Assembly: GCA_003116975.1 (NCBI GenBank)
Contig: BGKB01000153.1
Coordinates: forward strand, 62,001 to 126,000
DNA length: 64,000 nt
Direction: 5' to 3'
Source of the DNA: Aurantiochytrium sp. KH105
Lineage: Eukaryota > Sar > Bigyra > Thraustochytrida > Thraustochytriidae
Made by a program: the position numbers and the translations under genes. Of the stretch, positions 6,579-38,026 are shown piece after piece. A model generated the notes under the pieces. That model saw only the letters and a program-made list of their open reading frames with translations, had not been told where the DNA came from and did not search any database. How positions within the stretch are numbered: the first letter of the stretch is position 1; every line of letters starts with the position of its first letter.

Positions 6579-8291
6579 TTACGAAGAAGGGCGACGCCGC
6601 GATGCAGACGATGCGATGAATGCGCGGTAACGCTCGAGCTCGGCGCAGTTTGGTAACTCCTCACAGCTCTCGTCCTCGGCATCTGTTGGTGGACGAATTC
6701 TCCGTTCAGCCTCACAACGAGTTTCAACATCACGAACCCAAGCCCGTTGGACTTCGCCTTCAACCTTTTTCCGCAACTTGACATCCGTACTCCACTGGCG
6801 GTTGGTCTCTTCAGAGACAAAGAATTCAAGGCCCTTGAAGACGTCTGGCTCGCGCGTGACGCGTCGCAAAGGATACTCAAAGGTTGCTTGCGAAGAAAAC
6901 TTGGTCAGCTGTTCTTCGTTGAACTTGCGAATCTTTTTCAATAGACCACAGCTGCTTGGATCCCTGTATCTCCGCTGCATTTGCGACAAAAAGCAGGTTT
7001 CATCCAGATTTCGCTCATATACCTTTTGCACGCGACGTTCGACCTGCTTGCGAGTCTCCGGATTCGTCTTCCAGGATTTGTGCACGTGGTGCGGCACGAA
7101 AAACTCAATGTTTTTGAAAACGTCGGGCTCGAGAGTCTTGTGCAAAATGGGATATCGCGAGGACTGGTGAAAGGAGAAAAGGGCCCGCAGGCTCCGCTGG
7201 TGCGCAACAAATTCCTCGCACTTTTGAAGGTCGACACAGCTTTTCGGGTCGCCATTGCCACGGTTGCGGTTACTACGATACCTCTTTTTATCCGTGTCGC
7301 ACTTTTGACTCAGGTCTGCGACATAGGCGGTTTGGACTTCTTTCTCGGTTTCGCGCCGCAACGTGGGGTTCCTGGCCCATTCACGCGCCGTGCTTTGCGA
7401 GACGTAAAAGGAAATGTCCGGGTAAATATCAAACTCGTGCGTGGAAAGAACCCGCGGAAATTTTTGCGTGGGACGCAGCGAAAACACGTTCTCTTGTTGC
7501 ATGGGTAGAGTGACAAAACTCATGAGGAAGAGAAGCAGTAGAGGCAAAAACTGCATCAGGCTGTTGCCACCAGCAGGGCCGCCGCCTGGTCCACCCCGCG
7601 GGCCATGCCGATGCATGCCACCGGGGCCAAAGTTGTACATACGGACGCCGGGGCCGCCCATACTCGCGCCAAATTGTGCGCCAAACACCTCGCGAAAGAT
7701 GTCAGTCGGGTCAAAGTCATCGTGGTGATACCTCCTCGCGTACTGCGCTGGGTTGTCCGAGGTTTCGCCGTACTGGTCGTACTCGGCTCGCTTTTGGTCG
7801 TCGCTGAGGATGCTAAAGGCCCTGTTTATGCTTTTAAAGGCTTCGTCCGCGCCAGGGGCGCTGTTCTTGTCTGGGTGGACTTTGACGGCCTTTTTGCGGT
7901 ATGCCTTTTTCAGTTCGGCAGCCGAGGCACCACGCGAGACGCCAAGCATCGCGTACAGCTCCTTGCAGCGCGTGATTTCCTGTACGATGCGGAGCTGTTC
8001 AGCCGTGTAAGGACGTGTGTCCTTTGGTGGCTCCGTAACAGCGGGTTTACGACTTGCCGTGCTACTGGCCGATGCTGATGCTGCAGCAGCAGGCCGTCGC
8101 CGAGCGCCCGTCGCATTGGCAGCGGCTGGTTCGGGCCCGCGTTTGGCTTTCGCCAAGAGCTCGCGTGTCTGCGCAGAGTCGAACATGCTCTGACTCTTTT
8201 CCAGAAACTTGACAGCCTTGGCATAGTTCCCTTGCTGCATGTGCCTCTGCCCGATTTGCTGGGCGCGGAGCGCCTCGTCACGGTTCATCAT
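6579..8291 (-). CDS. ER-membrane J-domain co-chaperone, DNAJB12/14 type, with three DUF1977-like modules
   Basis: 570 residues in one exon, starting with two consecutive ATGs (8291 and 8288). The N-terminus resembles a short helical repeat. A J domain follows at 111-176 with HPD at 139-141, then a Gly-rich linker and one hydrophobic segment (about 245-263). This is the layout of DNAJB12/DNAJB14, which recruit Hsp70 to ER-membrane quality control. The rest is three copies of a DUF1977-like unit (about 286-365, 379-460, 470-560). Each has a FYV/FFV strand, a Trp or Leu helix, an R(K)xVExxVQ(K/R)xYxxxL helix, a Cys and later SC(x)xL. Known family members have one such unit, so triplication is unusual. 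The next gene upstream is a paralogue on the same strand, so the pair arose by tandem duplication. Function in ER protein quality control is inferred from the family. Confidence 0.88.
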
Positions 8292-8310
8292 GATGGCAGC
8301 CCACTTGTCC

Positions 8311-8330
8311 GCTTGCTCGCTCGCTCGCTT
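8311..8330. repeat. GCTN tetramer array, 5' leader of DnaJ gene
   Basis: Five tandem tetramers of form GCTY lie 20 bases upstream of the minus-strand ATG at 8291. They belong to the pattern of short arrays placed close to start codons in this window. Confidence 0.8.
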
Positions 8331-8854
8331 GGTTTATCCTTGAGCAACCTAGGCTCGAGCTCCCCTTCCTCGCGAAACGACGGGGACTTTTGCAGCTTCC
8401 GAGCTCTCGGGCGTTCAGCTCCTGCCCCGCACGCGTCGCGGCCGCGTCCTCCGGGGTCCGCGCGCAGGTTTCCTGCCGCGCTTCGGGCTCTGGCGCCTCC
8501 CTCCGCTCGCTCGCTCCCTCCCTCCACGTCACCCTCGGTCGCGGCGTCGGCGCGGGTCGATGCGCTTTTCTTGTGCGTCAGGCAGACGCGCCGTCAGGCT
8601 CTGCCGGCCTGCTCGCTGCCTCCCGCCGCGCGCGCGGGGAGCGGGCCGCGGTCGGTCGGTCTGCCGCCTCGCCGCGCCGCGCCGCGCCTCGCTCCGTCGC
8701 GCGGGAAGCTGGTTTCGCGCGCCGCGAGCGCTCGCGAGCAGGTTGTTTGGTTGTTTCGGAATGGCGCGCTGCCGCTGCGTATTTCCCGCCTCCGCTCCTT
8801 CCGCTTCGTTTGTTCGACTTGCGCGAACCTCCCGCGAATGCGGGAAAGGCGCCG

Positions 8855-11391: not shown

Positions 11392-12390
11392 ATTGCTGGC
11401 GAAGACCCTAAGTGCTCCTTTGCCTCGACAAGTTTAGTTTCTGTATTTCGTATGCTTTGAAGCAAGCTCGCAAGCGCGTGCGCGCAAGGAAGATATGAGA
11501 CGCTCTCAAGGCGCTCTCAACGCGGTCGCAGCTCTTCTCCACCGCTCGCGCCAATAACAATTTGCCTTGTGCTTCTTGGTCCTCGAGCGCGCTTCGGACG
11601 CTGATGCTTCAGAATCAGCTTCGATTGGCAGGCCGGCGTGAAATGGATGCTTCACCTAAAGGTTATCGCGCGACTAGTCGGCCAGGCCAGCGCGGACGAC
11701 GTTCCTCGGGAGCACTGCGCGGTGCTGGCGGGCTTTCTTTATCACGAATTGCCGCCGCCTCTGCGACGCCACCTTAAGGGCGAGCCGGCGAATCCCGGCG
11801 ATCCTGTGGGATCCCGCGCCTACTGCGACCCCGCGCCTACTGCGACCCCGCGCACGCTCCGCTTGAGCTTGCTTCGCGCGTGTGGCTTCTTCGTTTGCTT
11901 GCATCCGAGAGTCCTGCGCAGTGCGAGTTGCGATCCACTTGCTTGACCTGGTCATGGTTGATTATGACTTGTGTAGTAGTAGTAATACCTAGTGATTAAC
12001 CCTTCTCTTTTGTAGTATTAGGCCTACATTGAGTTATACGCAAGACAGTGAGCGGCACGAAATAAGGCGAAAATAGAAGAGGAGGGAGATTGGAGTGTGT
12101 AAGTTTACGCATTTGGTGATGACGCTGGCTAGAAGCAGCACCCTAAGCCTATTCTAAATCATTCTTCTCTTTTACTTTGTGACAATTGGTCGCCAGAATC
12201 GTGTCTGAAGAAGCAAGAACTCAACGCGCAGGATTTTTTCCTGTTTTTTTTTTTTTTTTTTTTGGAAGGCCTGAAAAGCTCGCGAATGAATTGCTGGATT
12301 CACCCCTGTGCTAACGGGTACTCTTTGGAAATGTCATGAGTGTTTTTCTTCTACTGGCGAAAGCCAGATTTGCCCGTGCCATTAATCTCA
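11392..12390. other. Non-coding region upstream of the second DnaJ gene
   Basis: No gene is supported. It includes the promoter of the 727-residue DnaJ gene, a 17-bp tandem repeat (ccgcgcctactgcgacc) at 11814-11847 and a run of 20 T at 12244-12263. Composition becomes AT-richer from 11950 on. Confidence 0.6.
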
Positions 12391-21980: not shown

Positions 21981-24900
21981 TCACAAATACGAAGCCCAGC
22001 CAACCCATTGACGCGCAAGAATGCCTGGATCTGTCGCCATGGCAATCAACGTGTTCACTTGGTCCACTTCTGAGAGCATTTGCGTCTCCCACTCCTTTTG
22101 AGGTCCATCAACGGCAAGGTCGATGCGCGCGGATCCCGCGGCGTCAGATGCCCCGTTCCTAATAGATGCCTGAAGAACACGAAGAATGTTGTCGCGCGGC
22201 ACCGTCTTGGATCGGCGCTCATTGACTTCTGAGGCCATGACCGATACCGGATTGGCGCCCTCCAATTTGAGGCGTGCACGGTCAATCCGATGGTCTCGCG
22301 TGCCGGCCTGCTCCTCCAACACAACTTCCGCGCCCTCCACAGCAGCCTCGGCTTGCTGCGCCATTTGTCCAGCGTCTTTACGTATACGCTGGGTCCAGTC
22401 AATCATGGGCTCGTTGAGGAAGACTTCCATCACGTGCGTAATCATCTGGCGCTGCTCCCGAAGCGCGCGCAAGCTGTGCACCATACTGTGAAAGAGGACC
22501 GTTTCGGAACGTAGCGGCTGCAGGACCCCCACAAACTGCCGCGTCAGTCGAAATGGCGCGAGTTCTGGAATGGGCAAGTGCGTCACGCTAAATCCAAAAG
22601 AATACCCAAAGTCAATGTGGACGACTGCCCCGTCTCGTTCGCTCAAGAGAATGTTGTCGAGATGCCTATCTCCGATGCCAAGCAAGTAAGTGCCTATGCA
22701 GGCAGTCCCGATCGAGCGTGCCAGATTTTGGCGAATCGAAATAAACCCTTCCGCGCTGCTCGCGAGGTGCAATAGGTGCCGACGAATCAAGTCCTCCGGA
22801 ACGAGCTCAGGCACCTTGGCAAAGTTCTCAATCACGAGAGCATTGTTCGAAGGATCATACACCTTGGCGTAGTCTGCAGAGGAGCCCACAGAAGCACTCA
22901 CCTTGCGGAAACACGACTGTAGCGCCTTGAATGCTTTCCACGATTGATGAGACAATGAGGCCGGGGCCTCTGACGAGGGCCCGCCTTCGCTACGATCATT
23001 GCTCTGGGCGCCCCCAGACGAACCGCGCTTGCGCTTGCGTGTTGAACCTGTAGATTGCGCACTCGCACTCGAGGCACTTGAAGCGGACTTGCCTCGCTCG
23101 ATCAAAGAAAAATCAGGATGGCTCGTGTACTGCTCCTCGAGCACAGAACGAAATGTCTTGGTATTTTCCACCCACTCAAGCAACCCAATGTCCAGCGACA
23201 GAGGAATCACACGGTACGTCTTAAGCTGCAAGCCGCGCTGCGCGCAAGCCGCGTCTTGTTGGAAGATTTTGTTCATCACCCCAAACAGCTGCTGGATGCG
23301 CGAGTCCATGCGCAGGTCGTCGCCTCCCTTGACAAGGAATTTGTACTCGCGCTCATCATCTCCTCGCATGACGAGACATTTTGGCTTTTCCTTGGACCCC
23401 ATCACCTTGAGTCGTTGTGAAAAGCTTGCAATGAGTGCGTGCTGATTGACCCGCGGTGGTGCTTGCATGCCCAAATTCTCGTACTGTCCAGGAACCTCAA
23501 TTCCTTCTGCGAAATTGCTCATGTCAAAATCCGCCAGCCACTCGGAAAACTGTGAAAGATCCATTAGAGGAGGCACGTTGCTTGGTACTTGCGTGGTCGC
23601 GCCAACTCCTCGCGCCGATTTAGTCAAGAACTTTTTCACCTTTTCAGCGGAAATCGTCTCTCCGTGTTTCCCAAAGTAGTCGAATAGACGTCGGTGTTGC
23701 TGCGCATACTGCTTATTGTAACGCCCTACACTTTTACCCACGCCACTCTTGGAGACGGCTAGGACGTCTTCGAGGACGTCCCGTCGCCAAATTCTCGCAA
23801 GATCGGCTTCCATCTGTGGCTTGGGCCCGCCTTGGACCAATCTGTTCTTGAGCTTGCTCAGGGCCGCCTTCATGCGCAGCTCGGGGTGATGTAATCCATG
23901 GAATGCGGTCAAGAATGACGTAAAGAGCTGGCTTCGCAGCGCTGTCTCGAGCTGATCGATGCGATCCCGAACGTCGACGGGATCATCCTCGACAGTGTTA
24001 GCGTCAAGCTGCGCCTGCATGCACTGTCGGCTTACGTTGAAGCTTGCCGAGAGAGCCTGGGGATAATCATGGGCCAGCCGAATGAGCACCGGGAGGACCA
24101 AGGGGCCTACACCAGGCTTGGGCAAGAGCGCCAGGATCTGAGGCACCCAGCGCAAGAATGTCCACGAAGGGACCTCTTCAGCCTGTGTTGAAAAGGCCTC
24201 CGCCAACGCCTGCACGTGTCCGAGACGGGTCAACAGCGAAAGCACACGCGGCAAGAGGTCAAGAGCTTCCAACGCGCCAGCGCGCGCGCCGGTCATGACC
24301 TCATTCACGAAGACAACAGCAAGATCCTCCACGGTTCGCTCCTCGCCAAGAAAGGTGACAGCGTCATTAAGGCTTGCGCCAGCATACTCACGAAGCATTC
24401 GGCTGAGAAATTTCGACAAGGCGAGCCGCCCTGCCGATGCAGGAGGTAGCTTTGTGAAAGCTATGAACGCCTTTGCTGCATGTTTCTGAATCTCTTCGTG
24501 GGTTGCAACTGGCTCGCCGTGATCACGAATCTGCAAAAGAATATCGGTTGCGCGTGCGTGCACGGATGCCGCCATGCGCCCCTGCACCGCGAGAGCGTCC
24601 GCAGAGAGTGAGTCAGCTCTGCTGCTGACGCCATCGACAAGCTTGATCGACGTCATGACGTCTTTGACACGCTCATCCAGTGGAACACGACGGGAGATGG
24701 TTTTTTCCAACAAGTGCTCCACCTCTGTCTCGTAGACGGCGATGGCGAGCTTTTCATCGGGTTCACCGCCGTGAGCGTTGGCGCGCAGCTGCTTCCTCAC
24801 GCGGCGTATATCCTCTCGAGCAAGGGCAAAGTGTCGCTGGGCGGTGAGCGCAACTGCATCTTGAAGAATAGAAGCGCAGCCAAACGCTTGCATCCTGAGA

Positions 24901-27900
24901 TTTACATCAGTACGAAGCTCGGGCAACCGCGAGACGATCTCTCGCCCCAGCGCCGAAAGCGCCTTGAGGCGCGTAAACTTGACTGATTCCCAGACATCCG
25001 CCGAGTCAAAGGTTTTGGCCGGGGTGGCCCGCTGCCACTGGTCAATTAGGTCTTGAAAGACTGCGAGACTTCGCGTCTCATCAAAGCCATTCTTCACTAG
25101 CGTTTCACGCGCTTCAAAGTACGAGCGCAGGTCCATGAGCGACATGAGAGGCTTGAGGAGCGCCCTTTTTGAAGAGCGCCCAAATTCTCCAATACTTGAC
25201 CAAGTGTTTGCAAATTCCCCGAGACGCGCTTCAACGCGAGCACGCGCAGCAACATAGTTGCTCTGCTCCAAATCGTATAGCACAAGGTCCACAGGGGCCC
25301 AGCGGGTGAGCCAGTCGCTGCGTTCCTCTGGAGCGAGCATGCGTTCTGCGACCTGAGGCAGTTCGTTCGTCTCAAATGCTGTGCGCTCGCCCCGCAGTGC
25401 TTCGCGCACAAAGCGAACCGCACGCTCGGACTCCGTCTCTTCGTGCAAGCCAACACGCATGTACGGTAGCACGTGCGTTGCGAAGCGACCTTGATCCCAG
25501 AGCGCCGTGGGAAGAGCCGGATACTTTTCAGGCAAACGCTGTTCGCGCACAAGCTGTGCGCGCTTGTCTCTGTCGCTCTCCCAGCCATTGAGAGCAGTAT
25601 GAGACTCGAGCAGGAGGTCTTCGAGCAGACTGGTCCACCGACGGTCGTACAGTAGACAGTCGAGCCGACCGCGCCAGAGATACCGAAGTTTTTGCTCCTT
25701 GGCTGCAGCTTCACTCTCGCTGCCAGCTGTACTGTGCTCATCCTCGATGAGATTCATATAGATTTCCGCTGCAGCTTTGTAGTTCAAAGACTCTTGCAAT
25801 TCTAGCGCGTGGAGGGCCCGCTCGTCTTGGACTGCATTGGACAGAATACTCGTGAGGACGTCCTGCTCGCCTAATGCATCATAAAGACGCAAAAGCTCCA
25901 GCCAATAGTCTGCCACGAGGCTTTCCTGCATGGTCTTGGACATTGACATTTGCTTGGCGCGACGCCGCGTGCGAAGAATCGTGCTCTCCATTGCAAGAAT
26001 ACCAGACGCGATACAACGCGCCTGGATCGCTGCGTCCGCCATCGTGCGGGGCACAAGGTTCACGGGGCTCTGCTCGCTGTCTTGTAAAGAGGTCATGGGT
26101 CCAGCGCGGTCGATCGCCTCGTTGACAACGACTATAAGAGCCTCGACACAATTTACTACATCGGGCTGAGCACGCGCCTTGCGCAAGAGCATTTGCATGG
26201 CTTGGAGGAGCTCCTGCAGGCAGTCCATGCGCTTCTTGCTTGTGCCAGCAGGGACAAGAGCGCGGAATTGAGCTTCTGTTCCAATGAGACGATCGCAGAT
26301 ACCGCGCAATATACTCACGAGAATGTGCTGCGCAGATCGCGCATCCATTGTGCACACGGCAATCATGGGCTCGACCATATCCCGGATGGGAATCTCCACA
26401 TCAGGGATCTCTCCGGCTCGATACTTGCGGTAAAGACGAACCTTGCCGGCCCGTCTCCGACGATCTTTGCGCCTCTGGGCTTCGCGCCGCCGTCTTTCCC
26501 GATATGCGTCGGTACGAAAGACGTCGGCGTTATCTGCTTTGGCCTTGGGCGTAAAATCGGCGCCAATCTGTCGTGCTGAAGGGTCCGCAGAGGAAAGGCC
26601 GTAGCGCTTGGGGTCGAATCGTCTCCGCTCGAGCCAGCTTGGCAGCGCGCCGCCCATGGCAAGGGTCCCACGAGGCTTGGTTTCCGAGCTTTGCGTCGCT
26701 TTTGTTACATTTGCCCCAACAGGGGCCTTTCGACTGTTTTTCCCGGCTCGATACAGATCGTTTGCTGACGCGTCCGGACGAGGACCCTCGCCTGCCTCGA
26801 GCTCTGCCGTCTCGCCTTCGCTGAGGTTGTCTTCGTCGTCTTCCTCCTCACCATCATCCGCACGCGCACGACCGAGTGCCCCGCTCGAAGAGTTTCGATT
26901 GGAGGAATTGGCATGGTCGACAAGACCGGTGCTGTTTTGAGCGCGCGACGCTGGCATGGGAAACGCCTTGGAGAAAACATTGTCTGTAAACGCAGACACG
27001 GTTTGTCGCTTGCTTGCTTCAAGCGTGCCTCGAAGAACCCTTCGGCGCCTCTTCGTCACTCTTTGCGTCCCGGGAAGGAGCGTGGTCGCGAGATCTGCCT
27101 GCGTACCCATGTTGCCGGCATCCGTAAACTGCGTGGAAGGCGCCATTGTCGGGGTAAAGAGAAGATCCGCGGCGTCCTGCGTAGCACGGACCATTCCAGC
27201 CGGCGCGAGGCCGCCCATGTAGCCTTGTGTTCCGTCCTGAGATGCAGCCAGCGCTGATTGCGAAAACAAAGGCGCCATCGGCTGCGATCCGGTCATGCCA
27301 GCACCCGCACGACCACCTGCCTGCGAGTGTTCCCACGAGGCATCTACACGTAGCGGTCTGAACTGCGCACTCTCTTCGAGGCCCTGTGTGACCATCTTTT
27401 CTGGTTCGTCTCCGAACTCCGCATTGTACCGACTCATCTTGCGTATGCTTGCGAGCATAAGACCGGCCACATGACCGACCCAGGAAGACTTATTCGCGAG
27501 GCCCGTTATTGCCCGGGCTGACGTCTGACGCTCGCCATCACCATCGCTGCTCGCTGCTGATGCTGCCGATTCCGAGCTGTACTCGGGGTCGAGCGCACTT
27601 AGACAATGTACAAAGCGATCAAAGGGGGAACTGTCTGGAAGACGATCTTCATGGTCCCAAAACGCAAAGAGCTCCGTGCGCGTTGCAGCGTCTGGGTCAC
27701 CCAGCCCCGTGGCAAGTGCAGCTACGATGGCGCGATGGCCGCGAAGAGGCTCGAATCGTTGATACAACCACATGAGCAAGCGGTACGCCTGTCTCCGTGC
27801 GGCGGGGGAAACGTGACCTCGGGCGACGTTGATAATGTTGGGTGCGAATAGGTCAGACCATTCAATAATGGAAAAAGGTTCCGCTGCTCGGTCCATGCCA

Positions 27901-30900
27901 GCGACCAGGCCTCGTAAGATGCGCAGCGCGCACATTATCGAGACCGCAGATTCCGGGCGCACAGCCAAAGACCGTGCAATGGCAGGACGGAATGCAGAAA
28001 AGAGCTCTCGGGGTGACAAACCGGCGACCCGATCTGACTGCGCAGCAACTTCTGCGCGCTGTACTTTGGCGTCGCGCTCTCGCTCGATGTTTTGTTGAGT
28101 CTCATAAGCTTCGCCGTCCAGCGGTTGCTCTGTCGTTGCAGGCGGACGCACATAATAGATGTCATCCTGAGCCAAGAATCGTTCGAGAAGTCGTAGGGCC
28201 ATATCTTGAGCATCAGAACCGAGTTGATTGCAAAACAGTTTGAGCAAGGTGTCGAGGGTGTGACGGTTCAATACTTTTGCGAATCTGGCTTGTGCATCAG
28301 CTTCTGCAGGGGCGACAAGCGTTGCCATGATGGAGAGCCACAGATCGCTGCGAGACTGACCGATCCAAAGCCCGGCTAGCTTGCAAATCTCTTGCGTGAA
28401 GAGGTCAACGAGTTCGTCAGTTTGGTTCTTGTCGTCAAGCACATTAAGGACCTGGCCGCAAACTTCGGCAGCCACGAGATTCAAGCGCTTGTCCCTCCAA
28501 CGAAGGCTCTTTGCAAGTCCCAAGAGGAACTTGCGTTTATGGTCGTCGGTAAAGTTCGGGTCTCCAAGCGGGTCGTAACCATGAGCAATGATGATGCCCA
28601 AAAGATTAAGACCGGCATGTCGTTGAATCGTGTGGGCTTTGAAAACTGCGGTTCGCGTACGCTCATTCATTTTTGAGCCGGCAAGAAACTGCTTGACAAT
28701 GACCTTTCGCTCAATTCGCACGCCAAGGCCACCTGCATCTTGTGTTTGGGCCTTTGGTTTCTTCCAAAACCCAATCATCATGCTGACCAGCTGCAGATTA
28801 GCCGTCATTATAGCCTTGGAAGAGCTCGCCACCCGCGTCATCAAGATTTCGATGAACTTGCTCGCATTTGCCCAAGCTTGCTCGTCGCCAACGGCGAACC
28901 GGGAACTGCCTTGCACTGCGCGCTCCCAACGACCTATCAACACACAAAAGTCGCGCAAGAGATAATGAAAGCCGCGACGCGCGGAAGCCTCTTCGTCTGA
29001 CGCAAACGGCGCTTCGAGGTCAAGCAAGACCTGAAGCGCAGGACGCAGCAGCGAGCCTGCAAACGGCGCGAAGAGCGTCGGTCGATTGAGAATGATTTTG
29101 AGGCCAAAGAGACGAACATTGATGGTGCAGCGGCGTCGTGCCTGTGCCTCGGCGCTGTCGCCAATTCCAAGCTCGAGACCCATCGTTTCTGTCCCCGATG
29201 TGAGAGCTGCAATGACCGAATCGACCCATACCGGCGTTGTGGAGACGATGGATGCATCGATCTCCTCTGCATTTGTCCACGCAAAGAGATCTTTTTTGCG
29301 CATGACGTCTAACATGGCCAGGACTCCCGTCATGCAGGGAAGTCGATTGAGTGGGTCAAGTTCCAAAGATTCAGCTTCGTCTGCAGCGCACTCTAACGCA
29401 ATAGCGCTCTCCGCTTTGTTGTAGTCATCGTCGTCCATCTTGATTGGTTCCTTTTTGTCGTCGTTGGTTTTGGTAGTTGGCCTTTCGGGATCGCTCTCAG
29501 AATTTTTTGCTTTTGAGGACGATGTGATCTGACCCGACGCATCGAGCTCAATTTCCATGTCAGCGCTGGTATCCGCCGGAATAGGGGGAGACGCGCTGTC
29601 GCCGATGACCATGCTATTGAGCTTGGCGCCAGCGAGGTTCTCTGGCGGTGCAAAGGAGTATTGCGTGACGTGGGTGCTTGAAAAGGTCGCGGCCGTCCGA
29701 AATGCCTTGACTGGAAGTCCCTGGTGCTCTGTATTGTCCAAGAGGCCCTCGACGCTGAGCATGCTATTGCCAAAGTTTGACTGGACCGCAAAGGTAGGTT
29801 CGTCTGCAACACTTTTACGCAATGGCACGAGGGCGTCCCACATGCCATCTCTGCCGATTTGAAAAACCAAACGCTCAAGGACTGAGGCTTTAGATTGCGT
29901 GCGTGCAAGTGCCACACACATAAACTGAAAGACGGCATTCGCGTAGGAGCCACCCTGTGCGCGCATTGCGCGCAAGAGGACTGCAGAGTCCGCGGCGCTT
30001 GGTGGCTTCTCACCACCTGGCGGTGGTGGTGACGGCTGGTGCGCAGCGGTCTTGGCCGCAGCGCGGCCTTCGCGTCCGAGACGGGTCAATTCCTGTTTGC
30101 CAAAGATACAAAGCTCGCGCGTAATATTGCGGCCTGCGTACTTTGCAGCAAAGATTTGATCGAGCTGATTTTTCGTCAAGCAGGTGTACATAACTTGGAG
30201 AATGTCGAGCGCGCTTTCACGAATGGAAAGAGACGCCTTGTCGAAGCGCGGAGACGATATGTGGGTCAGCACTGGGTGCGTGAGGCGAAGGAGAAGCGCG
30301 TGGTCATCTTCGGCGAGCCATGCGGTCCATGTGCTTGCGCGGATACGCTGCACTAACGGAAGCAGCAACATTGACATGAAGGTGCTACGAAGTGCCGCAG
30401 TTCGTTCTGATGTGGCAAATATGGTCTCGGTGCACTCACGACACATAATCAAGGCCGGTTCGTCGCCAGGGGCGCCGGAAAAGACATCCAGCGCAGCCAC
30501 AAGGTTTGTCAAGTGATCAGCGATATGCGTTGCGTAGACGTGCTCCTTGCCATCGCGCAGCTGACGATGCAAGATACGAAGGAGAAAGATTGATCCGCAC
30601 TTTTCCAACGCGAGGAAGAGCGCTTTCAATAAAAGTACAAAGTCATCGCGCTCCAAACTTGACAGTGAATCGTGCGCGCCGACGGGAAAATGGCGCGAGA
30701 CAATGGACTCGCGCACGAGTTCGAGCGCGCTCGCTTCGAGAGGAGTTGCCACCAATGACGTAGCAGTGGACTTTGCTTCCTTTTTGTTGCCTTGTTGGTG
30801 TGCGGCCCACTGGTGCCACTTGAGGGGCGCATTGGAAGTGAGTCCTCGAAAGAGAAGAGGCAGCATGGTGCAAGCGTCGACTTTGGCGGTGACGGCGGCC

Positions 30901-33900
30901 TCCGGGGCAAGAAGCCTTTGCATGATCATGGTCGCGACCTTGAGATGCAAGGCCTCCGGATCGGATCCTTTTTCTTCTTCATGAAATGCGAGCGGATCGA
31001 GTCGGAGCAGCCTGCCGAGAAGAATGCCTAGCTTGTGCCAAAAGCTGTCGATGTGGGCGTGTAATTTGGTATGGGGACCCGTCAAGAGCCTGTGCAAACC
31101 GCCGACGAGATGTTTTGTAAAGATTTTCGAGGAGACAAACGCCAGAGCCTGGTTACCGAGAAGGTTGGCGCGAATCGCGAGCTCGTCAGCTGCGGCAGTG
31201 AACATCTCGAACGCGCGTTCGCGCGCGAGGTCTTCCGGACCGCAAAGCGCATCGAGAACAGGGGACGAGGCTGCCTTCCATGAGTCGCGCGCGAGCAGGA
31301 CATGGAGTACGGTCTCTTGAAAGTTGGTGTAAAATGTTAGTTTGCCCAAGGCGTCGCGCACGAGATCCGCGGGATCCCATCCCAGATCAAGTGCCAGGTC
31401 GAGGGCTGCGGCCCCAGACTTGAGCTCCATGGGTGGCGGATCGTCTCCCAGTCCCGTCACCGCTCGTTGAAGGTAGCTGAGAGTATGCGCCGGGTTCTCG
31501 ATGAAGGAAAGATTGGCACGGTGGAGAATGCGATGACCTCGTAGCTTGGTCCGGAAACCAATTTCCGCATCTGCGAGGCTGCTTCCAGGGCTGGCAAGCA
31601 AGGAGGACTCGCCAGCGTCCTGCTCGAGAATTGAGGGCTGCATGGCCTTAATCTGTGTCGCAATGGCGGGAACATTGGCAACGGCAGACACGAAGCGCTC
31701 AAGTGCGGGAAAAAACGACTGTTGAATGGTGACGTTTTCGCGATCAAAAGCGCGCTGCGGGGACCGGGTGTGCAGGGCGAGACGGAAGACGAGAATTATG
31801 GCACTCGGTACGCAAGCGGCCAAGTCGACCTGGTTGGGCATGCTTTGGATGAGCTCGCTCAAAAGCGCGAGCGTCGACAACACAAAGGAAGAAACGATGG
31901 AGCGCGAGTACTCGGCTGCATTGTCGCGGTCCTGGAGGAGATGCGCCGCAGCTGCGTCGAGTGACGCAAGGAGCGGACGAGCATCATGAAAGATGTCGAG
32001 TGCATGCTGGCGGATGAGCCAATGCGTGGCATCAATGCGGCCCGTGAGATCCTCAATCCAGACACCGCGAGAAGCGCCGACGGACCGCGCGTTGTCGACG
32101 GTGGCAGGAATATCAGCAACAGAATCGATGGCAAAAGGCAACGCACGAGCTTTGGTCTCGTCCAGAAGAAGAAGGTCAAAGTCTGCGTCGGTGGGCTTTG
32201 GCACTGCAGGCGGCTCACCAGCCTTGAAGTCGGCGAGCCAGGCCTGCACCGCGTGTTTGCGGTCATGATCAATGACGCGAACAAAGATGGAAAAGAGCTC
32301 GCGGCACTTGCGGCGAAAGGCAAGTTCGCGACGCGAAATGCGAGCAAAGAGCCAACGAATAACCTCGTGAAGGTCTGCAAAGCGTCTGCGCGGCAGAGAC
32401 TCGTCAGGCAGTGCCAAAATGGTAGCCCGGCGGCTTATAATGCGGCAGAGACGATTCACGGCGCGCTCCGCCACCGCCACGGTCCCGATGGCTTGCTCGT
32501 CCTTGTGCGCAAGTCGTAGACAGGCCATTGCGTTTTCGAGGAATTCGAGAACGTTTTCGTCGACGAGGTCAGGGTTCTCGCGAAACTCGCGATACAGATT
32601 TTCAAAGGCCAGACAGGCCCCAAGACGCTGATAAGGGTCCGGATGGCGCATGAGAAAGTAGATGCGACGTAGTAAAGAACGCACGTTGGCCGCGCGGCGA
32701 CCCTGGTCATGGCGGCGGGTCTTCACGGACCACTTGAAGAAGATTCCGACGACTTGAGCGCAAACATCGCGCAGGGAGCCACCGGCTTTGGACTTGAGGT
32801 TGTCCATTGCGGCCTCGAGGAGCGCCATGGCCTCGGCATTTTCGGCGTCGACTTGATGCGCAAACCAAGCGGCAAGCTGCAAGACCAGCGGTTTGAAGAG
32901 CTGGCGCGCGACAGCCTCGGCGTCGACGGCAAGGTGCAGGAGACCTGGAAAGAGATGGCTGAAAATGGTAGCCATGGCATACGTCTCTTGGGAGGATGCC
33001 CCCGAGGCTGCGGATCCGCGTGCTGTCTCGTTGGAGCGGCCGACCATGAAGAGCACAAGCGCATGAAGTAGCTCGCACGCGGCGACTTTGACTTGGCGCT
33101 GCGGAGCGTTTCGCGCGAGATCTAAGGCACGAGGGATGAGATCATCGAGCTGGACGTGAAGTGAATGGTTGACAAAGCGAAAGTTAAAGGAGACGCGATC
33201 TTGTGTATCCCACCGAAAACCTTGCGCGAGCGAATCCTCGACGGAAGGAAGCACAAAGCGGTTCATGCCGCCGATTCGCCCGAGAAACTCGACAATGCGA
33301 AGGTCGAGAGCATCCATGTCGGCTGTGATGCCGACCCCGAGACTAGAGCTCCCTTTGATACCTTTGAGACGTCGCGCTCGATCAGCGCGGGTTTCGAATG
33401 TACGTAACTTTGCGGCGTTGCTTTGTGTTTTGAAGGAGAGAAACTTGCCAAGGTGCGGCAGAATACGCTGAAGGGCGGCCGGGTCAAGGACCCCGCCACG
33501 GAACCAGAGCATGATGGCATCAATAGCCTGCGAGGAGAGGTCAGGCCATGCGCGCCCACCTGTAACGAGAGCAGCAATGATGGCAGCTTCAAATTGTGCG
33601 TGTCTAGAGCGCACAATGCAAAGAGGTGCGGCCAGAATGCATTGAAGACAGGCGCTGAAGAGCTCGTCCTGGTATTGCTTGGAACGCATAAAGGCCATGT
33701 CGAGAAAACGCTGGGCGTGGCCAATGTAATTCTCCGTCGGAATGGTGAAGACAATGTGCATGAGTTTGTAGTATCCACTTACGAGTGGGAAAATGGCGGA
33801 GCGCTCGAGAATGACCTGGGCAAGTACGGGTGCCCATTTGACAAGTTTCTCTGCATCCAACCCTGCAAAACCTGGCGGCAGGACGCGGCTGCAGAGTTCA

Positions 33901-36275
33901 ACGAGGTTGAGAAAGGCCAGGTATTGTAGGGGTTTTTCCGGGACGAGTTTTTCAGCATTTGCCGCGGTGGCGACAGTGTGAGTGAGAAGATCGGCGGGGT
34001 CTTCCATGCCGAATTCAAGATCAGCTGCGTCAGCACGATCGTTGTCATGGTCGGTCCTCATGCTTTCCTCTTCTTCGGGGGTTCGCGGACGGAGCGCGAG
34101 ATTCAAGGCCTGCGTCATCTTTGTAACGACCTGGATAAAGTGGTCAAGAACTTGCTCTTGGTGTTTTGGCTGCTCGAGCAAGTCAGCTTCGTCTTTGTCA
34201 AATTCAGTATCATCGTTGTCGTTGTTGCCATCGTTCGCCGCAGCTCTAAGGTCGGGTCCTCCTATGTGGGGATCAAGATCGTCGGCGTCTTCTTCGGCAT
34301 GGGATTTTTGGTTTGGGTTGGCGCGTGATGTTGTTTGATTGTTTGGCGAGGCGCCATCGTCGGTGGAGGCGGCGGCATGGGGAAAGAGGAACTTCCACAT
34401 GGGGACATAGGCGAATAAAAGTCTGGTTTCCGGTGCACCCGTTTCTGGATGAAAGAGAGTGATGGATGATGAATGTCTGGGGATCGTTGCGCAAGATTGA
34501 ACAAGGAGTGGGCGGATTGTGAGATCGAGAAGGCGTCGAAGGGCCTGGCCCTTGGGTTGGAGGGCCGCGGTGAGACTTTTGATGGCGCGCTGTACGGTGA
34601 CACGATCGATCGCAAAGAGACCTGGATAGGCGCGTCCGAGAAAGAGGATTTCACGTGCCAGAAAATCAAGGAGAATTTGGTCTCGCTCGTCAATCTTGTT
34701 GGCTGGAAGGTGAGTGATAATGCGGGCGTAGGTGCGAAGGAAGCGTGCGTGACGCACAACTTGCTCTGTGCGACGCTTGAGATGGAAGCGGGCGTCGCCC
34801 GCAATTTTATGTGAGGAAAAGAGAGTGTAAGTTTCGTCCTCCATGTCCGCTTGCGTCATGCCAATGGTGGTGCTGTCGAGAAGGCCGGCCGTGGAGCTGG
34901 CTGCGGTTTCCGCGCTAAGAAATGCAGGCACGAGGTGCTCTTCGTTGCGGTCAATGGTGTCGCTGGCCTCTTTGAGAATGTGAAGGAGGCGGCGAAGCAC
35001 ATTGGCGTCCTCGAAGGCAAGGACCGCAGGCGCGAAATAGCCGTAGCCGTTGATGACGAGCTCTACATCCCGATTGGTGAGCGTCTCGGCGTGGTGCTTG
35101 GCGCTCGAGGTTGCGGCCGCGTCGGAGGCATCTGCGGTGGCGTCTCCGCGCGCATCTCGCGCGTGCTCGAGAATGTTGCGAAAGGTGTTCATGAAAGAAT
35201 TCATGGTATCGCGAGCATGAGGAGGGGTTTCGCCTGGTGCGGCGGCAAGATCGGCGAGACTGCGCCCGACGGTCTTGAGAACCGCCAAGGCGCCGCGATA
35301 GCCGGGACTGCGTACTTTTTGGTGCGGGGAGCGCGAGAGGGTATACAGGGCATTGTAAATGTCTTTTGGGTCGCGGAGCACGTCAGGCTCAAAGGTTTGG
35401 ATTTGGTCCGCGAGTAGGAGCGCGGCACGTTTGGGAACTTCGAATCGGTTTTGTCGCGAGGAAATATTGAGTTCGTGTCGAATAAGCTTGAAGAGGCGAG
35501 CGCGTTCGTCTGAGCTGCAGAGTGGAAAGTGTCGCAGGAGCGTCTGAAGGCACTGGAAGGCGCCCTCGACGAGTGCGTTTTCAGCCTTGGAGTCTTCCAC
35601 CCCTGCGTTTTTCTCGAGAACGGCAATGCAGACTTGGCGAAGTTTGTCGCCGAGAGGTTTTTCCATGTGTTCATGAGTGCGATCGCGGGCAAAGAGGGGC
35701 GGGTATCGATTGACAAGTATGCCAAGCGTGATGAGACATTCCTTTTTCACGGAGGGGCGGACCTTGGGTCCCGAGTGAGCGACGCGGAAGAGCGCGGTGG
35801 CGAGTGGATCAACAGCAAGCTCTTTTGCATCAAGGAAAACAGCGGTGAGTTCGAAGAGGCTTTGGAGTGGCAAGAGCGCAGCGCGTCGCGCGTCTGCGGC
35901 GGTTTCGACTTTGAAGGCGCGGAAGGCGACGTCTCTGATGTCGAGGGCGTAGTCGACGACGGATCGCGCGCCAACGCGTTTGATCCAGCGGCCCACGAGG
36001 CTGTAGAGCTTTGCGCGGAGTGAGATCTCGGCCTTGTCGGAGAGTGCTGGGTCGGCCTGTGTGACGGCCTGTTCGAGAAAGTGGAGAAGGCCTGGTGCTT
36101 CTGTGCGGAGAAGCAAGAGGTGCGAGCATTCGAGCACGGCCCGTGCGCCGGGCTGCAGACTAAGGAGTGTTTCCTCGAGCTCGTCGACGAGGAGGTCGAG
36201 GCCGGCGTCGAGGCGCTCGCCGGCGTGCAGCTCTTGCAGCTTTTCTCGCAAGGTCGCGGCGGGTCCTTGGTCCAT
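21981..36275 (-). CDS. DNA-dependent protein kinase catalytic subunit-like PIKK (DNA-PKcs)
   Basis: A 4764-residue protein in one uninterrupted exon, ATG at 36275. About 2900 residues of helical-repeat (HEAT-like) solenoid come first, then an SQ/TQ-rich region, a FAT-type helical region and a PI3K-like kinase domain. Kinase landmarks are LVKGGDDLR (Lys 4316), GIGDRHLDN (Asp 4536, Asn 4541) and HIDFGYSFG (Asp 4555). It ends in a FATC tail, ATDPGILARQWVGWASYL. The ANPVSV segment before the tail and PELAPFRLTRQF after the DFG loop are DNA-PKcs-like. The intact catalytic residues exclude TRRAP/Tra1, a pseudokinase of similar length. Human DNA-PKcs is about 4128 residues, so this one is longer, partly through disordered insertions such as the Ser/Lys-rich one in the kinase domain. 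The family role is Ku-dependent end joining of DNA breaks in the nucleus. It is divergent with TFIIE-beta. Confidence 0.88.
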   Translation of the reverse strand: MDQGPAATLREKLQELHAGERLDAGLDLLVDELEETLLSLQPGARAVLECSHLLLLRTEAPGLLHFLEQAVTQADPALSDKAEISLRAKLYSLVGRWIKRVGARSVVDYALDIRDVAFRAFKVETAADARRAALLPLQSLFELTAVFLDAKELAVDPLATALFRVAHSGPKVRPSVKKECLITLGILVNRYPPLFARDRTHEHMEKPLGDKLRQVCIAVLEKNAGVEDSKAENALVEGAFQCLQTLLRHFPLCSSDERARLFKLIRHELNISSRQNRFEVPKRAALLLADQIQTFEPDVLRDPKDIYNALYTLSRSPHQKVRSPGYRGALAVLKTVGRSLADLAAAPGETPPHARDTMNSFMNTFRNILEHARDARGDATADASDAAATSSAKHHAETLTNRDVELVINGYGYFAPAVLAFEDANVLRRLLHILKEASDTIDRNEEHLVPAFLSAETAASSTAGLLDSTTIGMTQADMEDETYTLFSSHKIAGDARFHLKRRTEQVVRHARFLRTYARIITHLPANKIDERDQILLDFLAREILFLGRAYPGLFAIDRVTVQRAIKSLTAALQPKGQALRRLLDLTIRPLLVQSCATIPRHSSSITLFHPETGAPETRLLFAYVPMWKFLFPHAAASTDDGASPNNQTTSRANPNQKSHAEEDADDLDPHIGGPDLRAAANDGNNDNDDTEFDKDEADLLEQPKHQEQVLDHFIQVVTKMTQALNLALRPRTPEEEESMRTDHDNDRADAADLEFGMEDPADLLTHTVATAANAEKLVPEKPLQYLAFLNLVELCSRVLPPGFAGLDAEKLVKWAPVLAQVILERSAIFPLVSGYYKLMHIVFTIPTENYIGHAQRFLDMAFMRSKQYQDELFSACLQCILAAPLCIVRSRHAQFEAAIIAALVTGGRAWPDLSSQAIDAIMLWFRGGVLDPAALQRILPHLGKFLSFKTQSNAAKLRTFETRADRARRLKGIKGSSSLGVGITADMDALDLRIVEFLGRIGGMNRFVLPSVEDSLAQGFRWDTQDRVSFNFRFVNHSLHVQLDDLIPRALDLARNAPQRQVKVAACELLHALVLFMVGRSNETARGSAASGASSQETYAMATIFSHLFPGLLHLAVDAEAVARQLFKPLVLQLAAWFAHQVDAENAEAMALLEAAMDNLKSKAGGSLRDVCAQVVGIFFKWSVKTRRHDQGRRAANVRSLLRRIYFLMRHPDPYQRLGACLAFENLYREFRENPDLVDENVLEFLENAMACLRLAHKDEQAIGTVAVAERAVNRLCRIISRRATILALPDESLPRRRFADLHEVIRWLFARISRRELAFRRKCRELFSIFVRVIDHDRKHAVQAWLADFKAGEPPAVPKPTDADFDLLLLDETKARALPFAIDSVADIPATVDNARSVGASRGVWIEDLTGRIDATHWLIRQHALDIFHDARPLLASLDAAAAHLLQDRDNAAEYSRSIVSSFVLSTLALLSELIQSMPNQVDLAACVPSAIILVFRLALHTRSPQRAFDRENVTIQQSFFPALERFVSAVANVPAIATQIKAMQPSILEQDAGESSLLASPGSSLADAEIGFRTKLRGHRILHRANLSFIENPAHTLSYLQRAVTGLGDDPPPMELKSGAAALDLALDLGWDPADLVRDALGKLTFYTNFQETVLHVLLARDSWKAASSPVLDALCGPEDLARERAFEMFTAAADELAIRANLLGNQALAFVSSKIFTKHLVGGLHRLLTGPHTKLHAHIDSFWHKLGILLGRLLRLDPLAFHEEEKGSDPEALHLKVATMIMQRLLAPEAAVTAKVDACTMLPLLFRGLTSNAPLKWHQWAAHQQGNKKEAKSTATSLVATPLEASALELVRESIVSRHFPVGAHDSLSSLERDDFVLLLKALFLALEKCGSIFLLRILHRQLRDGKEHVYATHIADHLTNLVAALDVFSGAPGDEPALIMCRECTETIFATSERTAALRSTFMSMLLLPLVQRIRASTWTAWLAEDDHALLLRLTHPVLTHISSPRFDKASLSIRESALDILQVMYTCLTKNQLDQIFAAKYAGRNITRELCIFGKQELTRLGREGRAAAKTAAHQPSPPPPGGEKPPSAADSAVLLRAMRAQGGSYANAVFQFMCVALARTQSKASVLERLVFQIGRDGMWDALVPLRKSVADEPTFAVQSNFGNSMLSVEGLLDNTEHQGLPVKAFRTAATFSSTHVTQYSFAPPENLAGAKLNSMVIGDSASPPIPADTSADMEIELDASGQITSSSKAKNSESDPERPTTKTNDDKKEPIKMDDDDYNKAESAIALECAADEAESLELDPLNRLPCMTGVLAMLDVMRKKDLFAWTNAEEIDASIVSTTPVWVDSVIAALTSGTETMGLELGIGDSAEAQARRRCTINVRLFGLKIILNRPTLFAPFAGSLLRPALQVLLDLEAPFASDEEASARRGFHYLLRDFCVLIGRWERAVQGSSRFAVGDEQAWANASKFIEILMTRVASSSKAIMTANLQLVSMMIGFWKKPKAQTQDAGGLGVRIERKVIVKQFLAGSKMNERTRTAVFKAHTIQRHAGLNLLGIIIAHGYDPLGDPNFTDDHKRKFLLGLAKSLRWRDKRLNLVAAEVCGQVLNVLDDKNQTDELVDLFTQEICKLAGLWIGQSRSDLWLSIMATLVAPAEADAQARFAKVLNRHTLDTLLKLFCNQLGSDAQDMALRLLERFLAQDDIYYVRPPATTEQPLDGEAYETQQNIERERDAKVQRAEVAAQSDRVAGLSPRELFSAFRPAIARSLAVRPESAVSIMCALRILRGLVAGMDRAAEPFSIIEWSDLFAPNIINVARGHVSPAARRQAYRLLMWLYQRFEPLRGHRAIVAALATGLGDPDAATRTELFAFWDHEDRLPDSSPFDRFVHCLSALDPEYSSESAASAASSDGDGERQTSARAITGLANKSSWVGHVAGLMLASIRKMSRYNAEFGDEPEKMVTQGLEESAQFRPLRVDASWEHSQAGGRAGAGMTGSQPMAPLFSQSALAASQDGTQGYMGGLAPAGMVRATQDAADLLFTPTMAPSTQFTDAGNMGTQADLATTLLPGTQRVTKRRRRVLRGTLEASKRQTVSAFTDNVFSKAFPMPASRAQNSTGLVDHANSSNRNSSSGALGRARADDGEEEDDEDNLSEGETAELEAGEGPRPDASANDLYRAGKNSRKAPVGANVTKATQSSETKPRGTLAMGGALPSWLERRRFDPKRYGLSSADPSARQIGADFTPKAKADNADVFRTDAYRERRRREAQRRKDRRRRAGKVRLYRKYRAGEIPDVEIPIRDMVEPMIAVCTMDARSAQHILVSILRGICDRLIGTEAQFRALVPAGTSKKRMDCLQELLQAMQMLLRKARAQPDVVNCVEALIVVVNEAIDRAGPMTSLQDSEQSPVNLVPRTMADAAIQARCIASGILAMESTILRTRRRAKQMSMSKTMQESLVADYWLELLRLYDALGEQDVLTSILSNAVQDERALHALELQESLNYKAAAEIYMNLIEDEHSTAGSESEAAAKEQKLRYLWRGRLDCLLYDRRWTSLLEDLLLESHTALNGWESDRDKRAQLVREQRLPEKYPALPTALWDQGRFATHVLPYMRVGLHEETESERAVRFVREALRGERTAFETNELPQVAERMLAPEERSDWLTRWAPVDLVLYDLEQSNYVAARARVEARLGEFANTWSSIGEFGRSSKRALLKPLMSLMDLRSYFEARETLVKNGFDETRSLAVFQDLIDQWQRATPAKTFDSADVWESVKFTRLKALSALGREIVSRLPELRTDVNLRMQAFGCASILQDAVALTAQRHFALAREDIRRVRKQLRANAHGGEPDEKLAIAVYETEVEHLLEKTISRRVPLDERVKDVMTSIKLVDGVSSRADSLSADALAVQGRMAASVHARATDILLQIRDHGEPVATHEEIQKHAAKAFIAFTKLPPASAGRLALSKFLSRMLREYAGASLNDAVTFLGEERTVEDLAVVFVNEVMTGARAGALEALDLLPRVLSLLTRLGHVQALAEAFSTQAEEVPSWTFLRWVPQILALLPKPGVGPLVLPVLIRLAHDYPQALSASFNVSRQCMQAQLDANTVEDDPVDVRDRIDQLETALRSQLFTSFLTAFHGLHHPELRMKAALSKLKNRLVQGGPKPQMEADLARIWRRDVLEDVLAVSKSGVGKSVGRYNKQYAQQHRRLFDYFGKHGETISAEKVKKFLTKSARGVGATTQVPSNVPPLMDLSQFSEWLADFDMSNFAEGIEVPGQYENLGMQAPPRVNQHALIASFSQRLKVMGSKEKPKCLVMRGDDEREYKFLVKGGDDLRMDSRIQQLFGVMNKIFQQDAACAQRGLQLKTYRVIPLSLDIGLLEWVENTKTFRSVLEEQYTSHPDFSLIERGKSASSASSASAQSTGSTRKRKRGSSGGAQSNDRSEGGPSSEAPASLSHQSWKAFKALQSCFRKVSASVGSSADYAKVYDPSNNALVIENFAKVPELVPEDLIRRHLLHLASSAEGFISIRQNLARSIGTACIGTYLLGIGDRHLDNILLSERDGAVVHIDFGYSFGFSVTHLPIPELAPFRLTRQFVGVLQPLRSETVLFHSMVHSLRALREQRQMITHVMEVFLNEPMIDWTQRIRKDAGQMAQQAEAAVEGAEVVLEEQAGTRDHRIDRARLKLEGANPVSVMASEVNERRSKTVPRDNILRVLQASIRNGASDAAGSARIDLAVDGPQKEWETQMLSEVDQVNTLIAMATDPGILARQWVGWASYL
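27060..27300 (-). other. SQ/TQ cluster within the DNA-PKcs-like protein
   Basis: Residues about 2997-3071 contain eight Ser/Thr-Gln sites (GSQ, FSQ, ASQ, GTQ, ATQ, STQ, GTQ, GTQ) in 75 residues. SQ/TQ is the consensus of PIKK kinases. The position, between solenoid and FAT region, corresponds to the autophosphorylation cluster of human DNA-PKcs. Confidence 0.7.
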
Positions 36276-36296
36276 GGTCTCGACGGCCGGGCCTCC

Positions 36297-36332
<36 letters not shown>

Positions 36333-36333
36333 A
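36297..36333. repeat. CCAG tetramer array (about 9 units)
   Basis: A pure CCAG array ends 22 bases upstream of the DNA-PKcs-like ATG at 36275. On the coding strand it reads as CTGG/GCTG, the same GCTN class as in other leaders. Confidence 0.95.
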
Positions 36334-36410
36334 CCGCCGCGCCGTCAGGCAGTCACCCACACAGCTGGGCTCTGCGCGTGGCGTGCAAGCGCCCGCGCGC
36401 TTTCAAGTCG

Positions 36411-36450
36411 CTCTGCTCTGCTCTGCTCTGCTCTGCTCTGCTCTGCTCTG
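36411..36450. repeat. CTCTG pentamer array (8 units)
   Basis: Eight perfect CTCTG units lie in the middle of the divergent promoter, 335 bases upstream of the TFIIE-beta ATG. Confidence 0.95.
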
Positions 36451-36671
36451 TTCGATTGTCCGCAACTCGTATCTGCGGAACCCGAAGCCTGCGAATCTGC
36501 GTTGTCCAGAGGCTTCGCGTCTGCTAGATATGTCCTTGCCCGAGCTCGCTCTGCGCGCCAGAGCAGGTTTGCCTTGGCTTCCGCGCGCGGGCGAGCGCGG
36601 GCGAGCGCGCGACGGGGCGCGACGGGGCGCGGCCGCGCGGAAGCGTCTGCAGCGCGAGCGTTGGCGGCGCG

Positions 36672-36710
36672 GCGAGCGAGCGAGGGAGCGAGGGAGCGAG
36701 CGAGGGAGGC
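36672..36710. repeat. GAGC/GAGG tetramer array
   Basis: About nine tetramers of form GAGS lie about 75 bases upstream of the TFIIE-beta ATG, within its expected 5' leader. Confidence 0.8.
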
Positions 36711-36784
36711 GCGCGCGCGCGACGGCGGCGGTCGTCGTCGCGGTCGTCGCGGGCGCGGAGGAGGGCGCGGGCGTCGCGGGCGCC

Positions 36785-38026
36785 ATGTCGGCGCAGTTCC
36801 TGGGCGCCGCGTACGCGGGCGGAGAAGGGGGCGGCGAGGAGGGCGAGGCTGCGCGCAAGCGCAAGCGCGTGGACGAGGACGAAGGCGATAAAGAGGAGGG
36901 CGGCGAGGACGAGGGAGAGGATGAGGACGGCGACACGGGGAGCGAAGACGAGGACGGCGAAGACGAGGACGACGAGGAGGGGAAGAAGGCGGCGTTGATG
37001 AGCACGAGGCTGTTCACCGTCCGCTCGCACCTGCAAAGCGTCGCGAACCACGACTATGTCTTCTTTTCGGATATCCTGCAGGAGCTTGACATCAACCTCG
37101 AGGGGGATCCGGACCTCCTGGAGCGCTTAGAGAAGAGCGACATGATTGTGGTGGACATGAACGAGAAACGGATCAAGTTCGAGCCACGCTTTGACGTGCG
37201 CGACATTCCAACTCTCTTGCAAGCGCTCAAAAAATTTCCTGATGGGATTTCTGTGCAAGAAATCGAGGCGAGCGGTCCAGAGGGGGTCATCTCGTACGTG
37301 CAGAGGGCGATCACCTGGGGGCTGGTGATTGCGATCCGGAACCGCAACGCTGCCGGCGGGACGTCTCCGTACGTGTTGTTCCCGCGCGGAGACTCCTTTT
37401 TCGTCCCGCTTAGTGGGGCGGTCACGGCGGAGCCTGGTCGTTCGGCCTTGGGGTCGACGTGCGACCTGCAGGGCGAGGTGCACCGCGGCGATGCCCTCGT
37501 GCTGGGACGCGACGCCGTGGAGGCGTTCGAAGACAACGACCTCTCTGTGGTGGAGCAGCGGTGCCTGCGTGTCTCAACTGAACCGTACGGTGCTAGGCAG
37601 CCGCACGCGGACCGCGAGTACGCTGCGGCTGTGGAAATCTTGCAGCGGAACCAGGTCCCTTATTCGCGATCGTCCGCTGAACCGCCGCGACCTCCCAAAG
37701 AAGGCGACTACAAGCTCGTTTTCACGGACTCAAAGGTGCCAGTGATTCCGTCTGTGAAGGCTGCCTCGGCTTTGAGGGGCGTCCAAGCGCTCAAGCACGG
37801 GTGCACGAACGACGTCAAGGCGTTGTGGCGCGAGGTGTGCAAGAAGCACCGGTATCGTGCGGCGGCGGCCCCGATTGTGGACCATTTGCTGACGGAGAAC
37901 AACTTGACGACGGCGGAACGGCTTGCGCAGAGCAGTGTCACGCGCAAGCGCAAGGTGCGCCTCAGCGCCAAGCCGAGGCGGCAGAACAACCGTGCGCGCA
38001 AGATTACCAATACGCACGTCGACTAA
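36785..38026 (+). CDS. Transcription factor TFIIE beta subunit-like
   Basis: 413 residues, one exon; ATG at 36785 chosen because the frame upstream is repeat-derived. An acidic low-complexity N-terminus (20-68) is followed by two winged-helix regions. The first (about 74-135) runs from FTVRSHLQSVANHDYVFFSDI to KRIKFEPRF; the second (about 138-200) from DIPTLLQALKKFPDGI to YVLFPR. KFEPxF(D/N)VxD, LLxxLxKxxxGI and the strand ending in LF are the TFIIE-beta pattern. A DVKALWREV motif (343-351) and a basic tail (TRKRKV...KPRRQNNRARKITNTH) match the end of human TFIIE-beta. In the human protein the LWRSV motif follows the second winged helix closely; here about 130 residues intervene. The family recruits and activates TFIIH at RNA polymerase II promoters. 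Confidence 0.8.
   Translation: MSAQFLGAAYAGGEGGGEEGEAARKRKRVDEDEGDKEEGGEDEGEDEDGDTGSEDEDGEDEDDEEGKKAALMSTRLFTVRSHLQSVANHDYVFFSDILQELDINLEGDPDLLERLEKSDMIVVDMNEKRIKFEPRFDVRDIPTLLQALKKFPDGISVQEIEASGPEGVISYVQRAITWGLVIAIRNRNAAGGTSPYVLFPRGDSFFVPLSGAVTAEPGRSALGSTCDLQGEVHRGDALVLGRDAVEAFEDNDLSVVEQRCLRVSTEPYGARQPHADREYAAAVEILQRNQVPYSRSSAEPPRPPKEGDYKLVFTDSKVPVIPSVKAASALRGVQALKHGCTNDVKALWREVCKKHRYRAAAAPIVDHLLTENNLTTAERLAQSSVTRKRKVRLSAKPRRQNNRARKITNTHVD

Follow-up and report, generated by a model that had tools for sequence, protein, structure and literature searches.

A DNA-PKcs gene in the thraustochytrid Aurantiochytrium sp. KH105

The window, by which we mean the whole stretch of 64,000 nucleotides analysed here (Aurantiochytrium sp. 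KH105, assembly GCA_003116975.1, contig BGKB01000153.1, positions 62,001 to 126,000), carries on its reverse strand a gene of one open frame (21981–36275) which specifies a predicted protein of 4,764 amino acids. Judged by its domains, its matches to known structures and its place among related kinases, this protein is an ortholog of DNA-PKcs (PRKDC), the giant kinase with which animals mend DNA breaks. We put the probability that the locus is a protist DNA-PKcs gene, under selection and most likely vertically inherited, at about 95%. It is a new protist member of a family already known as ancient and widespread. The features of the protein described below are all encoded on the reverse strand, and the searches for other genes covered the entire assembly (76,034,492 bases in 367 contigs).

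Reading frame and kinase core

The frame begins with ATG and possesses no internal stop codon. The stop-to-stop run in which it lies contains 4,787 open codons, the probability of which, from the base composition of the window alone, is approximately 10^-75. Gene prediction from the letters alone had proposed an intact kinase, and this is borne out, a second allele being equally intact.

The PI3_PI4_kinase domain (residues 4310–4628; 22392–23348) was recognized both by its Pfam model (183.6 bits) and by its catalytic residues: Lys 4316 within FLVKGG, Asp 4536 and Asn 4541 of the DRHLDN motif (DRHxxN), and the DFG Asp at 4555. All are kept, and the Asp–Asn and Asn–Asp spacings of 5 and 14 residues are exactly those which the original prediction had given. 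A FATC domain (residues 4735–4764; 21984–22073), also foreseen, matches its Pfam model at 26.5 bits against a cut-off of 25.3; since the last of these residues is the last of the 4,764, the protein ends in FATC. Human DNA-PKcs (PRKDC; PDB 7nfc, 6zfp, 5w1r) displays the same order of domains, the same kinase residues, a FATC domain and a YRPD motif (see below), in a chain of 4,128 residues (5w1r) as against the 4,764 here.

The second allele, selection and exon structure

The second copy of the gene is located on contig C75, is intact and likewise specifies 4,764 amino acids; a small indel separates the two alleles. Over 4,763 aligned codons they show 280.5 synonymous and 109.5 non-synonymous differences (dS 0.086, dN/dS 0.119). 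When the frame was divided into ten bins (nine of 499–500 codons and one of 264) dN/dS was at most 0.198 in every one of them, and it was 0.07 at the kinase end. From these two alleles only, purifying selection acts along the whole frame. A pseudogene is ruled out by the intact second allele together with the dN/dS of 0.119.

Since no bin looks non-coding, a long unspliced in-frame intron is argued against, and the single exon of the original prediction stands as a putative one, read from the sequence only. This is nothing peculiar to the gene. The open frames at the other large-kinase matches are 3988 and 3497 codons for TOR, 3900 for ATR, 3162 for ATM, 2615 for SMG1 and 5684 for TRRAP; here, large kinases usually have one long frame. 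The locus offers an apparently single-exon source of a DNA-PKcs gene.

The patchy occurrence of the DNA-PKcs family across eukaryotes, as described in PMC8549938, might suggest a recent horizontal acquisition, or even contamination of the assembly. We regard this as very improbable. The gene is present as two alleles which differ by the synonymous divergence given above and whose contigs measure 289 kb and at least 126 kb; over 345 kept columns, identity of the kinase region to human DNA-PKcs is just 42%; and Ku80 of the same genome keeps a matching Ku_PK_bind domain. Vertical descent, as we infer it, is most likely. As an observation apart, a synonymous divergence of this size (C75 against the window contig, C153) seems high for one diploid genome; the organism may be a hybrid or strongly heterozygous.

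Identity of the kinase

Four Pfam models specific to DNA-PKcs match the protein above their cut-offs. DNA-PKcs_N (PF20500; 131.1 bits for the whole protein, cut-off 26.1) matches in two stretches, the better at residues 707–957 (33405–34157), while DNAPKcs_CC1-2 (PF20502; 200.1 bits, cut-off 26.1) covers residues 1101–1350 (32226–32975). The DNAPKcs_CC3 match (PF08163, NUC194, the Ku80-binding region; 38.4 bits, cut-off 28.9) at residues 2287–2452 (28920–29417) involves only the end part of the model, that is, positions 258–385 of 389. DNAPKcs_CC5 (PF19704; 92.6 bits for the whole protein, cut-off 25) matches in three stretches, the best at residues 3252–3387 (26115–26522). When the whole genome was searched with the CC1-2 model two loci only were found, the window gene and its allele. 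TPR_TTI1_N, the seventh Pfam family listed for the protein, falls far under its own cut-off, and NCBIfam gave no model for the protein.

A search of the PDB with the whole protein gave DNA-PKcs at 649.6 bits, the next family being mTOR at 129.5 bits. The alignment to DNA-PKcs begins only at residue 758; its best part, residues 758–1350 (273 bits), includes the CC1-2 region.

Because kinase and FATC domains are common to all these kinases (PIKKs), the protein might be a divergent ATM, ATR, TOR, SMG1 or TRRAP. Its last 500 residues do match ATR, TOR and ATM/Tel1 chains at 115.8–139.3 bits (matches under E 1e-30); DNA-PKcs, by comparison, is matched by this part at 274 bits. The DNA-PKcs-specific models also speak against such an identity, as does the presence in the genome of one separate gene or more for each of the five families, named by best PDB match, so that the window gene is not a mis-filed member of one of them.

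The kinase model has 34 matches in the genome, read by us as 17 pairs from their scores and frame lengths; this fits an assembly which keeps both haplotypes. For eight large paralogs approximately 10 kb surrounding a single copy was taken, and 900-residue pieces of five were named by their best PDB family: TOR (L034, contig C97; 780 bits), ATR (L037; 356 bits), ATM (L038; 356 bits), SMG1 (L039; 168 bits) and TRRAP (L040, contig C21; 77 bits). Another paralog (L035, contig C15) groups with TOR at 100/100 in the 16-row tree described below. The genome therefore has two distinct TOR kinases besides ATR, ATM, SMG1, TRRAP and DNA-PKcs. In the end piece of the TRRAP-like protein no DRHxxN was seen, as expected of a pseudokinase.

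In a kinase tree of 16 rows, rooted on two proteins (L036 and L041) which were named as PI3K by reading their sequence, human DNA-PKcs is joined by the window protein and its allele with a support of 95/94, which drops to 90/88 when TRRAP and the second allele are omitted (13 rows). As the rows are human and own-genome sequences only, the tree shows the class of orthology and not the relations among protists. A tree of this kind had been proposed as a check, with grouping beside TRRAP or ATM/ATR as the alternative outcome; the kinase falls with neither.

AU tests which pair the query with single human ATM, ATR, TOR or SMG1 rows also split those clades, and so overstate the rejection. They were accordingly repeated with the whole ATM, ATR, TOR and SMG1 clades, and each placement was rejected (p ≤ 2e-5), as was one with ATM and ATR together (p ≤ 2e-5). 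Placement with TRRAP was tested with the human row only and was rejected at p 0.0055, the TRRAP rows carrying a long-branch warning. The PDB scores, the separate paralogs and the AU tests (13 and 16 rows) rule out the other PIKK identities, to which we give next to no credence, and we proceed with the protein as a DNA-PKcs ortholog.

A putative regulatory module

Three features of the human protein have candidate counterparts here. Residues 2963–3071 (27063–27389) contain ten SQ/TQ sites in 108 residues, a cluster that may correspond to the ABCDE autophosphorylation loop. Between residues 2955 and 3075 glutamine comes after serine or threonine in ten cases out of eleven, the reversed motif occurring once. 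None of 5000 local shuffles reached ten sites (mean 1.9), and the second allele retains every one of the ten. The 13 other frames scored from the genome had at most three per 110 residues; this comparison set consists in part of PIKK/PI3K pieces or frames (eight) and of two alleles of one ligase, and several of its frames are incomplete.

Among 32-residue stretches of the protein the one at residues 3257–3288 (26412–26507) is the most basic, with a net charge of +14, the next separate peak being +9, and is a candidate for the DNA-end-binding helix. It runs into YRAGEIPD (residues 3285–3292; 26400–26423), the sole YRxGxxPD match in the protein, which begins at residue 3285 in both alleles. YRxGxxPD is also present in DNA-PKcs from oomycetes and other protists, according to the account which PMC8549938 gives of Lees-Miller et al. 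2020.

According to PMC8549938, in the sections bearing on this region, human DNA-PKcs has its ABCDE sites at 2609–2647, the DNA-end-binding helix at 2736–2767 and the YRPD motif at 2772–2784. The order of SQ/TQ sites, basic stretch and YRPD motif is thus the same in the two proteins, with the sites lying 215–322 residues upstream of the motif tyrosine here and 128–166 in human DNA-PKcs. Green plant DNA-PKcs resembles the present protein in its typical Pfam domains and YRPD motif; T2609 of the ABCDE sites is reported to persist in most of the plant species analysed, whereas all five PQR serines are lost, as compared with the ten clustered SQ/TQ sites here (PMC10419180).

The module was found post hoc, after inspecting the protein, and its regulatory function is a putative one. 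We would offer, tentatively and at somewhat less than even odds, that the whole switch (SQ/TQ loop, basic helix and YRPD strand) already existed in the ancestor shared by animals and this protist, the docking peptide being a Ku80 tail which differs in part (DADFDDFD, see below). If true, the release of DNA ends by autophosphorylation in trans would be as old as the kinase and not a refinement of animals. Nothing in this analysis but the SQ/TQ cluster could shift opinion on whether DNA-PKcs autophosphorylation is ancestral.

Ku, ligase IV and other end-joining partners

A search for Ku had been suggested as a further check on the kinase, and both subunits are in the genome; the Ku70 and Ku80 genes rule out an absence of Ku. 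Ku70 (687 amino acids, with a SAP domain) and Ku80 (L024/L025; 747 codons when counted from the first GTG) each occur as two alleles. The Ku_PK_bind domain of the two Ku80 alleles scores 72.9 and 74.5 bits, and a third match in the genome, at 16 bits, is under the cut-off. Against the PDB Ku80 chain the protein shows a weak stretch (31–160) and a strong one (305–737), 143.5 bits in total. Both alleles end in DADFDDFD, which is acidic with aromatic residues and differs from DVDDLLDM, described in PMC8549938 as the part of Ku80 which contacts DNA-PKcs; the contact here would therefore differ in detail.

Ligase IV is represented by a frame of 1,116 codons which matches residues 14–786 of the DNA ligase 4 chain at 277 bits, the next family being ligase III at 94 bits; its BRCT match reaches E 0.05 only. 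The short Pfam model for ligase IV found no match in the genome, and neither did that for XRCC4 (PF06632); in both searches the positive controls were silent too.

Six DRMBL matches in the genome were read as three gene pairs. The first is Apollo-like (117 bits, versus 38 for Artemis), and the third has a long N-terminal part. The second (L046:2257–6651 on contig C2, with its allele on C8) is a frame of 1,464 codons which joins an SNM1-type nuclease to a full ATP-dependent DNA ligase, an arrangement like that of plant DNA ligase 6. None of the three pairs could be named as Artemis, which does not show that Artemis is absent.

From these components one may propose an end-joining pathway which leads from Ku through the kinase to ligase IV. 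Ku70/80 would load onto the broken DNA end, and the C-terminal region of Ku80 would recruit DNA-PKcs, two of which would bridge the break. The basic stretch beside the YRPD motif would hold the DNA ends until the SQ/TQ loop became phosphorylated, probably in trans, which would release them to ligase IV.

Alternatively, the protein might be a DNA-PKcs ortholog which has ceased to serve end joining, and might act elsewhere, at telomeres or in RNA or stress signalling. The Ku80 tail, unlike the known contacting motif, would agree with this, as would the failure to identify XRCC4 (in a search whose controls were silent) and Artemis in the genome. We consider it unlikely, since Ku70, Ku80 with its Ku_PK_bind domain and ligase IV are all in the genome and the order of cluster, basic stretch and YRPD is preserved. 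End joining by the DNA-PKcs ortholog is the reading we prefer, and the analysis contributes a protist whose genome combines the kinase and ligase IV with a Ku that has its binding domain.

The same four end-joining proteins have been found in dinoflagellate transcriptomes, where Ku70, Ku80, DNA-PK and LIG4 are recorded and XLF, XRCC4 and Artemis are not, in the portion of that survey concerned (PMC6680887). An early origin has been proposed for the Ku-PK-bind domain, which is described in almost all fungal Ku80 proteins examined, including that of fission yeast (PMC11936186). Fission yeast is given as being without DNA-PKcs (PMC8549938), so the domain alone is no proof of an interaction.

Distribution

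Hondaea fermentalgiana is a thraustochytrid. The legend of a Ku80 figure lists this species (PMC8549938), and apart from that Ku80 there was, among the matches listed, no paper on a thraustochytrid DNA-PKcs, which is weak evidence.

The original prediction gave DNA-PKcs to vertebrates, Dictyostelium and scattered other groups, and described it as absent from plants. This picture is outdated, and the enzyme is not rare. The enzyme is reported in oomycetes, amoebae, fungi outside the Dikarya and green plants as far as the conifers (PMC8549938), and its record has been extended through the green plants (PMC10419180); chytrids, green algae, mosses and conifers are among the groups reported. It is kept in animals and absent from budding yeast, as stated in the relevant part of PMC6635534. 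With so wide a distribution already published, one more protist copy adds little on the age of the end-joining kinase, on which it had been expected to bear. That the gene is stramenopile-like, as was also proposed, is plausible. The kinome of Phytophthora infestans, for which four PIKKs were counted and DNA-PK goes unmentioned in the relevant part of the source (PMC3019232), speaks against an easy stramenopile story.

Neighbouring and other genes

A frame on the forward strand (36164–38023) adjoins the start of the kinase gene and resembles TFIIE beta at 24.7 bits, just under the cut-off of 28.1. Farther off, on the reverse strand, are two adjoining genes with DnaJ and DUF1977 domains (6582–8333 and 9211–11433) and a frame of 1,864 codons (445–6036) in which a nucleotide cyclase domain is followed by an AAA ATPase domain.

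A thraustochytrid source agrees with the PUFA-synthase-like frames of this genome, with its paired contigs and with the scarcity of introns in the genes seen; a search for 5.8S rRNA (39 of 2870 candidates scored) gave no match here, although its controls matched in 9 of 14. Thraustochytrids make DHA by a PUFA synthase (PMC8660808), and the eukaryotic PUFA synthases identified by 2022 are described as being all of three subunits (PMC9702510). One PUFA-synthase-like frame of this genome matches positions 6–1035 of the PfaA model at 930 bits, and a second, on another contig, matches positions 1759–2567 at 456 bits; both are under the whole-model cut-off of 1010, and the model also matches 11 of 14 control genomes, none above the cut-off.
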